NCBI GenBank assembly: GCA_947650285.1
Contig: CANTFL010000144.1
Coordinates: 620,001-684,000 of the forward strand
Reading direction: 5' to 3'
DNA: 64,000 nt
From: Hyaloperonospora brassicae
Taxonomy: Eukaryota; Oomycota; Peronosporomycetes; Peronosporales; Peronosporaceae
Shown here: positions 28,664 through 36,647 of the stretch, one piece after another
Numbering within the stretch: position 1 is the stretch's first letter
How the letters are laid out: each line of letters begins with the position of its first letter
Made by a program: the position numbers and the translations under genes
Notes under the pieces: model-generated
What the model was told of the DNA's origin: nothing
Database searches by the model: none
The model's input: the letters and a program-made list of their open reading frames with translations, nothing else

Positions 28664-29054
28664 TGTAACGGGGCAGCCCGTTACATGAAATTGTCACTTT
28701 AAGGAAAGTGACAATAAAGAATATAAAGATGGATATTCTTTAAAACAATATCACCAAAGTGGTGATATTAAAGGGTCGACCAAAGGGTCTGTTCATTGGT
28801 TGATATCGTGATGATATCAACCCACCAATCGCCGCAAGACGCGCGCAATGAGTGGTGACGAGACGTCACCATACATGCAGTTATATTAGTATAATTGAAT
28901 TAAGTCAAACGAAGAGACAGTAGTTTAAAGACTTAATTTATTAATATAACAGTTCTACTTTTACCCTACCTACGCTTCCTCGCTTGCCACGTGTACGTCT
29001 GTCGGGGCACTCAAAACCCTTGCGTTAAGTTACGCAAGGGTGTGCCCCGTTACA
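28664..29054 (+). repeat. 5' LTR, 391 bp
   Basis: Ends TGTAACGGGG...CCCCGTTACA (10-bp terminal inverted repeat). Inside lies a series of perfect hairpins: 28664-28685, 28691-28714, 28716-28741, 28747-28769, 28798-28822, 28854-28870, 28880-28950 and 29004-29048. Confidence 0.97.
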
Positions 29055-29056
29055 CC

Positions 29057-29064
29057 TGGTAGCA
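29057..29064 (+). promoter_or_regulatory. Primer-binding site (initiator tRNA-Met type)
   Basis: TGGTAGCA, two bases after the 5' LTR. It complements the TGCTACCA 3' end typical of eukaryotic initiator tRNA-Met. Also present in the left-edge copy. Confidence 0.8.
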
Positions 29065-29098
29065 CTTTGTAGTCCTTCCAAGGACCACATCATCCAAC

Positions 29099-30253
29099 AT
29101 GAACATGTTGGATGAAGAAGACACCTTTCACGCCACGCGTGAAGGGTTTACCCATTTGAGTGACATCGAATGGGGTGCGGTAGAACGAATGAGTTCTACC
29201 GTAGGCGAACTCGTCGTCAGCACCATGTTGGAGTCTCTAGACAGAGACCAACAACATGCCGCTATCGCCAAGTTCATTCAGAATGAACTTGCTCTCGAGA
29301 GGGAGAAAGTAGCCTTGCTTCACCAGCAAGGCTCTCAACAGGCCGAGCAGTTGAGAGAACTCGGTGCTCAACAGATGGAGCTGTTGAGACAGCAGCAATT
29401 CCATGCTGCTGTGGGCGGGACGGCGCATGCGCGTCGTCCCGAAGTCATGAAAGTCGACATCTCCAAGTACAGTGGAGTCCCGGAGGACTCCCTGTTACTA
29501 TGGTTTGTCGAACTCGACAGAGCCCTAAGGGCTCGTCGCGTCGAAGATGAGCAAATGAAACTCACATTTGCTCAGACCCAATTGGCAGGGCGTGCCAAAA
29601 CTTGGTCCCTGGGACTCGAGAGTAGCGACCCAAATGTGTTTAGGTTGCTAGATGACTTCAAGTCCCGGCTCAGACAAACGTTTGAGCCGCCACGTGCTGA
29701 GTTCAGGGCTCGCTCAGAGCTCCTGAAACTCAAGCAGGGTAAGCGTGATGTGCACGCTTACGCACAACATATACGACTCCTTGCGAGTAGTATAACTGCC
29801 AACCCAGTACATGAACACACGTTGATTACGGTGTTCATGCAAGGGCTCGCGGAAGGGCCCGTCAGGAGCCACCTGTTCCGCCTTGAGCTGAATACGCTTG
29901 AAGAAGCGATATCAGCCGCGGAACAGGAAGACTTTAGCATGAGACAGGCTCATGCTAGCTCAAACTCTTACCGTCCACCGAGACGACAAGAGATCGGAGG
30001 TCCAGAACCAATGGACCCCTGCTATGTTGAGAGCGAGAGACCTCGCTCTACAAACAACAAGCGATTGCAGAGGTGCAATCGCTGTCAGAAGTTAGGGCAC
30101 TACGCATACGAGTGTAGTGCTCCACGCCCAGTACCAAACAGTATTGAGCGAAATGGACGACCTTTTGCCAGAAAGGGCAATGGGCGTGGGTCCAGCGCTG
30201 TTGCGAAGCCGCAACAGCGAGACGGACCATCAAAAAATGGTCGGGGTCAGTAG
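29099..30253 (+). CDS. gag: Gag of the Ty3/gypsy element
   Basis: 384 residues, ATG at 29099 (MNMLDEEDTFHATREGF). It forms the capsid of the intracellular particle and binds element RNA. A Gln/Glu-rich coiled-coil-like stretch (about residues 60-105) precedes the gag core (LWFVELDRALRARRVEDEQ; LEREQ-like helices; AYAQHIRLLASSI; VFMQGLAEGPVRSHLF). A CCHC zinc knuckle CNRCQKLGHYAYEC lies near residues 328-341 (C-x2-C-x4-H-x4-C). The tail is basic and Gly/Arg-rich. The frame is intact. The start codon lies inside an 11-bp perfect stem (29091-29101 with 29104-29114). Pol follows in another frame. Confidence 0.93.
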   Translation: MNMLDEEDTFHATREGFTHLSDIEWGAVERMSSTVGELVVSTMLESLDRDQQHAAIAKFIQNELALEREKVALLHQQGSQQAEQLRELGAQQMELLRQQQFHAAVGGTAHARRPEVMKVDISKYSGVPEDSLLLWFVELDRALRARRVEDEQMKLTFAQTQLAGRAKTWSLGLESSDPNVFRLLDDFKSRLRQTFEPPRAEFRARSELLKLKQGKRDVHAYAQHIRLLASSITANPVHEHTLITVFMQGLAEGPVRSHLFRLELNTLEEAISAAEQEDFSMRQAHASSNSYRPPRRQEIGGPEPMDPCYVESERPRSTNNKRLQRCNRCQKLGHYAYECSAPRPVPNSIERNGRPFARKGNGRGSSAVAKPQQRDGPSKNGRGQ

Positions 30254-30303
30254 GGGCGGAGCGCCCTACTGATCCAGCAACCTCAAGAGAATTTGCAAAT
30301 CTC

Positions 30304-35147: not shown

Positions 35148-36126
35148 ACACGCGCCCTAGGCGCTTGTAGACGGATTGCAAGTTTGCAATCGCGTCACGC
35201 ATCTCACTCGAGATATGTGCCCTTCCCCAGGGCGAATTTAGGGAATACACGTCCCTATGTGCACGCTGCGAGTTGTCAACACAACTCGCACAAGGGTCTC
35301 CCCATGTGAGGCAAGGAATGCCTGCCTCACTCGATAAACAATGCAACCGGTACCTAGCACCGGTTGGCGTTCGCCGTTCGAACCTGAGGCGTGTTGCCTC
35401 AAGTTTCTTGAGCCACCCTTCTCGTCAAAAATTCTTTACGTTTTGGACGAACGCGTTCCACGCAGCCAAAAGCGATGTTTTGTCACGCTTTTGGTTGCTG
35501 TTGTACCATCGATGTCTAAGAAAGACATCGAGATAAAAATCTTCTTCAGCGCGAAATTCCTTCGCGCTGGAACTCAAGCCGTGAAGCTCGGTTGCATCGA
35601 ATAAGGGTATTCGATGGTGTTGGCCTGTCTCGTGAGACAGGCTATTGATGAGTTGTTCGGGCAAACGCCACGGCTTCAACTCATCACGCTTCACAGTGGT
35701 ACCCTTGTCGGTACCACGGCTCCCAGATTGACGACGGCTCGCGCCATCGTCATCACGCTCGTGCGAAGACGCACGAGCCGGCGGTGGTGAAGAATAGAAC
35801 TCACCACCCTGATCATCATCATCATCACTGCCGAACAGACTGTGATGCAAATCACGAGTCCGTTCGTTCGGCAGTGGTCTTGGCGAATACTGAGGCGTCG
35901 CCGGTGAGCGAGACGCCTCTGGAGCATTGCCCGAGTCAGACACGTCTGACTCGCCAGAGTAGATGACCTCTACATCAGGGTCATCGTGCGCACGCGGTGT
36001 GATACCGCGTGCACCTGCAGCACCTGTTGCTGCAGGCGAAGAAGGGGCGGCAGACGACGAAGCGTCTGCCGCAGAGGCTTGCACAGCACCAGGCTGTGTG
36101 GGTCTTGAGTCACCTCGCATAGACAT
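34519..36126 (-). pseudogene. Antisense ORF of the element, one in-frame TGA
   Basis: From the ATG at 36126 one minus-strand frame runs 536 codons to a stop at 34519, broken only by a TGA at 35427-35425. N-terminal part: Ala/Ser/Asp-rich, with PDVEVIYSGESDVSDSG and an Asp run. Middle: WRLPEQLINSLSHETG, EEDFYLDVFLRHRWYNSNQK and LLAAWNAFVQNVKNF, then after the stop REGWLKKLEATRLRFERR. C-terminal part: a clear charged coiled coil (MDRAIDELRDDLKHERDRR; LSSEVSYLRDQTDRLERER) and a basic end RRKKKART. No family is recognised. The start is 131 bp from the 3' LTR, whose antisense strand may carry the promoter. The stop could come from a single transition. Confidence 0.65.
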
Positions 36127-36245
36127 GTTAACTATGCGAGGTCAAGCGGAAAGTGAATGGAACGGACCCAACAAGTGCTCCCTGTCCCAATGGTGGCCAA
36201 CGGGTGGCCTCCATGTTTTCGATAGTCACACGGTGACTATCAGTT

Positions 36246-36253
36246 AAGGGGGG
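36246..36253 (+). promoter_or_regulatory. Polypurine tract
   Basis: AAGGGGGG immediately before the 3' LTR, three bases from its TGTAAC start. Expected primer for plus-strand DNA synthesis. Confidence 0.85.
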
Positions 36254-36256
36254 TGA

Positions 36257-36647
36257 TGTAACGGGGCAGCCCGTTACATGAAATTGTCACTTTAAGGAAA
36301 GTGACAATAAAGAATATAAAGATGGATATTCTTTAAAACAATATCACCAAAGTGGTGATATTAAAGGGTCGACCAAAGGGTCTGTTCATTGGTTGATATC
36401 GTGATGATATCAACCCACCAATCGCCGCAAGACGCGCGCAGTGAGTGGTGACGAGACGTCACCATACATGCAGTTATATTAGTATAATTGAATTAAGTCA
36501 AACGAAGAGACAGTAGTTTAAAGACTTAATTTATTAATATAACAGTTCTACTTTTACCCTACCTACGCTTCCTCGCTTGCCACGTGTACGTCTGTCGGGG
36601 CACTCAAAACCCTTGCGTTAAGTTACGCAAGGGTGTGCCCCGTTACA
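36257..36647 (+). repeat. 3' LTR, 391 bp
   Basis: Same length as the 5' LTR. By eye one difference: G at 36441 against A at 28848. Confidence 0.97.

Follow-up and report, generated by a model that had tools for sequence, protein, structure and literature searches.

How does an entire retrotransposon come to be filled with short perfect inverted repeats, in coding and non-coding sequence alike, and what would keep them there? The question is raised by a Ty3/gypsy element at positions 28664-36647 of a 64,000-nucleotide stretch of Hyaloperonospora brassicae DNA (contig CANTFL010000144.1, positions 620,001 to 684,000 of the forward strand), referred to here as the window. Its inverted repeats lie far above codon-preserving shuffles in coding, antisense and long terminal repeat (LTR) sequence, and they are fewer in more diverged copies. 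The explanation that we cautiously favour is that selection probably keeps the hairpins so that the RNA of the element folds into a chain of short hairpins that would hinder silencing by the host.

Within the element 114 maximal perfect inverted repeats (arms of at least 8 bp, loops of at most 20 nt) were found, where 20 base shuffles average 2.55; direct and mirror repeats built to this geometry come to 4 of each kind. The excess runs through LTR, gag, pol, chromodomain and antisense frames, as the initial annotation had noticed, and the ten arm pairs that it quoted are all exact reverse complements (10/10); its spacing of one arm every 25-40 bases was too dense, since arms of at least 8 bp occur about once per 67 bases, and a perfect palindrome that it gave as 22 bp long (31940-31961) is perfect but in fact extends over 24 bp (31939-31962). 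With loops of up to 30 nt, 119 non-overlapping repeats are obtained, and 39% of the element is spanned (coverage mask). The excess over expectation is greatest for arms of 8, 9 and 10 bp (41, 39 and 33 repeats, with loops of up to 60 nt) and drops to 10 at 11 bp; the loops of long arms mostly measure 3-11 nt, and the hairpin spans are concentrated at 20-28 nt (101/122). Codon-preserving shuffles (100 per coding part or host open reading frame, ORF) gave the same picture: gag holds 13 inverted repeats (shuffle mean 0.67, maximum 3), the protease 13 (0.67, 4), the reverse transcriptase (RT)-RNase H-integrase part (RT-RH-IN) 37 (1.24, 6), the chromodomain part 9 (0.83, 3), and the two antisense frames 10 and 13 (0.32 and 0.54, maximum 2 each), so that each coding part exceeds 100/100 shuffles. 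Three host ORFs show no excess, with 1, 2 and 1 repeats for shuffle means of 1.28, 0.86 and 0.43. A density no higher than in codon shuffles or in the host genes had been named as the result that would count against the observation, and the element exceeds both. Elsewhere in the window there are 10 inverted repeats in 1003-28663 and 15 in 36648-64000, the latter mostly in one cluster near 42 kb; in 42001-43000, 11 inverted-repeat starts are clustered on just 7% of the kilobase, probably a short tandem or palindromic array.

Predicted folding of the RNA in windows, a check that had been proposed with the observation, gives energies far below those of dinucleotide shuffles on both strands: the folding-energy z per kilobase is -11.9 to -25.4 on either strand of the element, and seven kilobases elsewhere in the window give -2.2 to +1.9. 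The mean folding-energy difference, calculated in separate 300-nt windows with 10 dinucleotide shuffles each, is 51.5% for the sense and 49.1% for the antisense strand (26 windows per strand), and the sense windows are all positive (26/26, range 29.8-85.3%). The claim of stems on both strands thus agrees with a predicted folding that is about equal in the two. The same quantity is 1.4 and 0.3% in two host stretches and 1.8 and 2.7% in two copia loci.

The region is a 7,984-bp LTR retrotransposon with 391-bp LTRs, 99.7% identical to each other, and a 5-bp target-site duplication. Gag, protease, RT, RNase H, integrase and chromodomain follow one another in the order of Ty3/gypsy elements, and by these Pfam matches it is a chromodomain-bearing Ty3/gypsy LTR retrotransposon. 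Its parts are the following.

28659..28663, no strand: left copy of the target-site duplication (ATCAC), identical to 36648-36652.
28664..29054, plus strand: 5' LTR, 391 bp, a row of perfect hairpins.
29099..30253, plus strand: gag ORF, 384 aa, matching capsid and zinc-knuckle families (Pfam Retrotrans_gag 1.1e-14, Ty3_capsid 4.8e-07; zf-CCHC_3 below cut-off).
30304..31152, plus strand: protease frame (Pfam RVP_2 4.6e-09), which in translation ends at TAA, with a further in-frame TAG at 31183, upstream of the RT frame.
30721..30748, no strand: longest perfect palindrome, 28 bp, within the protease frame.
31201..34167, plus strand: RT, RNase H and integrase frame (Pfam RVT_1, RT_RNaseH, Integrase_H2C2, rve); the 37 inverted repeats were counted in 31201-33911.
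31939..31962, no strand: the 24-bp perfect palindrome, in the RT domain.
33915..35147, plus strand: 3' part of pol, SH3_Tf2-1 (Pfam 1.4e-13) and chromodomain (Chromo 1.2e-13).
34519..36126, minus strand: antisense gene, overlapping the chromodomain frame by about 630 bp.
36246..36256, plus strand: purine tract preceding the 3' LTR, read from the sequence, which we take to be the polypurine tract.
36257..36647, plus strand: 3' LTR.
36648..36652, no strand: right copy of the target-site duplication (ATCAC).
1..1002, minus strand: second copy of the family, truncated (LTR and start of gag), 93% identical and rich in inverted repeats.

The window copy is broken, with two stops between protease and RT, the frame lost near 33.9 kb and one stop in the antisense gene; long open frames are present in other copies of the family. 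No Rfam family matched in 28600-36700, and no tRNA genes were found in the window. The ends of the LTR, 28664-28675 and 29043-29054 (TGTAACGGGGCA and TGCCCCGTTACA), have 12 complementary bases, beyond the usual TG..CA. Apart from the element, ORFs of 332 and 221 aa recur three times in 55546-63152 at a spacing of about 3.1-3.2 kb (ORF table), an arrangement that resembles a tandem triplication.

How the stems coexist with the proteins can be read at their ends. Outer ends of coding stems lie at amino-acid-fixed pairs in 33/72 cases for arms of at least 8 bp and in 50/137 for arms of at least 6, against 91/476 for chance stems in codon shuffles (arms of at least 6; Fisher 2.8e-6 and 4.7e-5), and stems tend to stop where the amino acids forbid a pair. 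Codons pair in the three registers as 30:12:30, the third-to-third register being avoided (p 0.011), and third positions mainly meet first or second ones. Compared with a rough upper bound on encodable non-overlapping stems, which ignores joint codon limits, 37/76 are realised in RT-RH-IN, 12/31 in gag, 13/22 in the protease and 9/33 in the chromodomain part, that is, about a quarter to three fifths. Bending of the amino acid sequence itself was considered and rejected: at columns at least 90% conserved in relatives, departures are found at 1/62 arm codons, 6/271 codons outside and 0/28 edges, and with only 1/62 in the arms conserved residues have not been sacrificed. Since stems end at amino-acid-fixed pairs and conserved residues are unaltered, most coding stems would have been made by synonymous choice, in line with the earlier suggestion that codon choice is bent towards stems.

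The genome (100.6 Mb in 898 contigs searched) holds many other copies, in which the history of the stems can be followed. The family is abundant, 39/39 other scored DNA matches being 99% identical over 1.5 kb, and this, like all copy counts here, is a lower bound (40 of 2171 candidates scored, and 150 of 3630). In young copies stem sites differ less than other sites, and in many old ones the gap is smaller, a comparison biased by the definition of the stems on the window copy. When the stems are instead taken from other copies, young copies differ from each other at 388/20601 paired (0.0188) vs 3536/64254 unpaired four-fold degenerate positions (0.055), about threefold lower in stems, the counts being pooled over copy pairs and non-independent. 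Among 44 further copies (the window's own locus, L001, was excluded from 45 aligned loci), single-copy variants are distributed nearly evenly, 253 in 866 paired and 837 in 2452 unpaired sites, whereas variants present in five or more copies avoid stems (20 paired vs 129 unpaired; Fisher against single-copy variants 0.006). The more a copy has diverged from that of the window, the lower its repeat density (Spearman 0.89 over 37 others): 7 copies more than 98% identical have 14.4 per kb, and 8 copies at 94-96% have 10.6. A few compensatory base-pair swaps are seen between subfamilies, and almost none among young copies. Such a pattern would be expected if selection acts while a lineage is active and copies decay once inserted.

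The initial annotation had proposed extending the count to other Ty3/gypsy families, and four stretches of two related families in the same genome are also repeat-rich, with 4.3-7.7 inverted repeats per kb (L070, L074 and L078 of one family, L071 of another; 58-62% amino-acid identity to the window element). The folding excess is 12.5, 9.3 and 15.2% in L070, L071 and L074. Stem positions mostly differ from those of the window element, 2-3 centres being shared when 12-16 repeats of the relatives are compared with 19-36 of the window element, a small share although above the 0.18-0.29 expected from random placement; one shared centre lies at the motif HPETDG, whose codons presumably favour a palindrome and so would explain it. 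Thirty Ty1/copia loci have 0-3.3 inverted repeats per kb, the highest being L042, and the mild excess in L040 and L041 comes mainly from the palindrome TGACGTCA, repeated in tandem (L040:537-600, L041:536-600). A divergent-protein query of the same genome gave 64-65% identity in 39/39 scored matches, of which the approximately 29 placeable by position are the window element's family. Viral contigs scanned contained no relatives. Bacterial and archaeal genomes gave one Ty3-type pol relative at 37% identity (L100:3001-5208), on a contig of a cyanobacterial (Trichormus) metagenome-assembled genome that is likely eukaryotic contamination; it has no repeat excess, with 3 repeats in 6,176 bp and a folding excess of -0.9%. 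The collections scanned yielded no DNA of relatives in other oomycete species, and the pattern is known here from this genome.

The strand symmetry of the folding acquires a possible reason from the antisense gene, which lies between pol and the 3' LTR, opposite the chromodomain frame. It is interrupted in the window copy by a single in-frame stop (35425-35427) and is open in another copy (L069:5301-6905, minus strand; 534 aa). Its first part matched 43 homologous proteins, and the antisense frames matched no Pfam family above its cut-off. Of the differences between two copies, 10/16 in the first part and 13/28 in the second, the one opposite the chromodomain frame, fall at third codon positions of the antisense gene. 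Transcripts of the two strands would overlap, and this overlap would be a reason for both to self-fold.

The following mechanism can be put forward. Where the proteins permit, the stems would have been built, and would be maintained, through point mutation and through selection acting on synonymous and non-coding positions. The target of selection may be self-folding as such and not particular structures, since related families are stem-rich but mostly at other positions. As to the benefit, self-folded sense and antisense RNA would pair less readily with one another or with small RNAs, and as part of the same step perfect duplexes would be kept mostly to 8-11 bp. Resistance to silencing is favoured because the 25/26-nt small RNAs of Phytophthora derive mainly from transposable elements (PMC3804510); nevertheless, the silencing benefit is the least certain step of the explanation, and the function is one that we infer. 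A bolder statement, that a clade of retrotransposons rewrote its whole genome, both strands, LTRs and overlapping genes included, into perfect short hairpins as a sequence-independent shield against silencing carried in synonymous codons, is tentative and rather doubtful.

Several results weigh against this explanation. The folding excess per base is still rising from 25- to 60-nt windows, and because it keeps rising the hairpins do not appear tuned to 25-nt guides; tuning to 25-nt small RNAs or guides as the main mechanism was rejected, the excess not being centred there despite the 20-28-nt spans. Per megabase, no other loci of Phytophthora yield small RNAs as potently as inverted repeats, which are also the main origin of the 21-nt class (PMC3804510). 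Hairpins could thus feed silencing instead of blocking it, although those loci presumably give longer hairpins. Stems of at least 10 pairs are perfect in 44 cases and have one internal mismatch in 8 (0 such one-mismatch stems in the four relatives), viral RNA stems being interrupted. The avoidance of stems is weaker when variants in two or more copies are set against private ones (p 0.065), and the copies compared are related to one another. The LTR goes in the same direction as the coding sequence but is not significant alone: variants of one copy number 47 in 140 paired and 89 in 251 unpaired sites, those of four or more copies 6 and 24 (p 0.14; 4 of 22 sources, L083, L085, L090 and L095, excluded as having no LTR match of 200 bp). 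RNAalifold on the LTR alignment gave no net covariation support (term 0.16), with two-sided change in 4/94 pairs. Finally, pol stem variants in two or more copies comprise 30 G.T and 36 A.C, when a sense-only RNA structure should tolerate G.U; with this ratio, no structure confined to the sense RNA is indicated. The stems show no clear preference for G.U and seem to be constrained alike on the two strands.

Of the two causes suggested initially, an RNA-structure genome accords better with the evolutionary comparisons than template switching by RT does. By the latter, the enzyme would snap back and copy one arm from the other, perfecting near-palindromes, and protein selection would only filter the outcome. 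In E. coli, template switching at quasipalindromes is a known kind of mutation (PMC7202029). Such a process would suit stems that are mostly perfect, flanked beyond arms of at least 6 bp by mostly transition-type and strand-symmetric mismatches (11 G.T, 11 A.C, 4 other), and a pattern shown by related Ty3 families and not by the sampled copia would suit a property of the RT. Unbiased correction, however, should move both sides together and allow compensated pair changes at about the rate of free sites, and template switching fits poorly because stem sites instead change less, not in pairs; young copies have almost no compensated pairs, and the non-coding LTR goes the same way. Where one of two copies lacks a stem that the other has, the differences between them are single bases or affect both arms (read by eye, direction not polarised), and the density of RT-RH-IN (37 in 2.7 kb) is just about a quarter below that of the LTR (7 in 391 bp), so that we regard this origin as quite unlikely. 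That the sense genomic RNA is selected for its packaging, compaction, control of translation or resistance to nucleases, silencing being irrelevant, is unlikely too, but deserves real weight: the hairpins span the entire genomic RNA, inverted repeats can provoke small RNAs (PMC3804510), and LTR stem variants, with G.T 7 and A.C 5 in two or more copies, lean 4 to 1 towards G.U in those of four or more. It is opposed by the predicted antisense folding, as strong as the sense one, by the lack of G.U tolerance in pol, and by the region with the overlapping antisense gene, which is equally repeat-rich.

Strand symmetry and strict Watson-Crick pairing would also be expected if the benefit or the selection acted on DNA, through hairpins in single-stranded cDNA or cruciforms in the chromosome. 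Yet more diverged chromosomal copies have fewer stems, for which reason nothing seems to maintain them there, and for a cruciform to extrude, 8-11 bp is a short arm; a DNA-level cause thus appears highly improbable. Chance, base composition or a repeat artefact has a practically negligible probability: the codon-preserving shuffles refute it, the base shuffles, the folding z and the 114 inverted against 4 direct and 4 mirror repeats speak in the same sense, and other copies share most of the stems. Selection for self-folding RNA that would hinder silencing remains our preferred explanation, with the reservations given above. If true, RNA structure on a genome scale would extend from RNA viruses, for which it has been discussed so far, to retrotransposons, and at a folding value that exceeds by more than a factor of two the top figure given for vertebrate RNA viruses (PMC7642675). 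The purpose of such structure would become testable, because young, constrained and decayed copies coexist in one genome. It would also suggest a general counter-measure to silencing for mobile elements without a suppressor protein, and caution with codon usage, the ratio of nonsynonymous to synonymous rates (dN/dS) and small-RNA mapping in such elements, which folding would shape.

Comparison with known systems places the element among several partial likenesses. Chronos, an oomycete Ty3/gypsy element, shares with it the chromodomain next to integrase in pol and its occurrence in Peronosporales, but has a second, archaeal-type RNase H (PMC5348765); in the window element none was found by Pfam at E ≤ 1 in 31201-34164 and 33915-35144, where only RT_RNaseH-type matches appear. 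Oomycetes hold other chromodomain-bearing lineages, and the words 'inverted' and 'hairpin' are absent from the main text of the Chronos paper (PMC5348765). Plant Retand-type elements likewise have an antisense gene between pol and the 3' LTR, but are described as non-chromoviruses, whereas the window element bears a chromodomain; unlike Retand, its antisense frames overlap the chromodomain frame and match no Pfam family above cut-off, and the main text of the Retand paper contains neither 'hairpin' nor 'inverted' (PMC11963269). The statement of the initial annotation that no such element had been described holds in the literature searched: none was found in open papers on oomycete or LTR retrotransposons with short inverted repeats, palindromes, hairpins or ordered RNA structure, or in those on gypsy elements of oomycetes that bear a chromodomain (titles and starts of abstracts, most subscription papers lying outside), and no precedent in those on structure-based silencing escape, H. 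brassicae assemblies, or quasipalindromes with reverse transcriptase. RNA viruses, though, do have structure of this kind along their genomes (PMC7642675).

The closest parallel is that of genome-scale ordered RNA structure (GORS), described in coronavirus and hepatitis C virus genomes as largely unbranched stem-loops throughout, with poorly conserved pairings; in coronaviruses, variants seen repeatedly avoid paired sites and those seen once do not (PMC7642675). By prediction and sequence, the element likewise has a folding excess over its whole length, poorly conserved pairings and shared variation that avoids paired sites. Common to both are the row of largely unbranched stem-loops through coding sequence, the poorly conserved positions, the avoidance of long perfect duplexes, and multiply seen variants that avoid paired sites with single ones nearly even (PMC7642675). 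The element differs in degree, with a folding-energy difference of about 50% against 15% in SARS-CoV-2 and 23.4% in the highest vertebrate RNA virus of that paper, a comparison only similar in method, as 350-base fragments in 15-base steps and another shuffle were used there (PMC7642675). It differs also in kind, the stems being mostly perfect instead of interrupted and including the LTRs and the antisense gene (PMC7642675). GORS belongs to positive-strand RNA virus genomes and the element is an LTR retrotransposon (PMC7642675); for that reason it would be not a member of the class but an element that appears to work like it.

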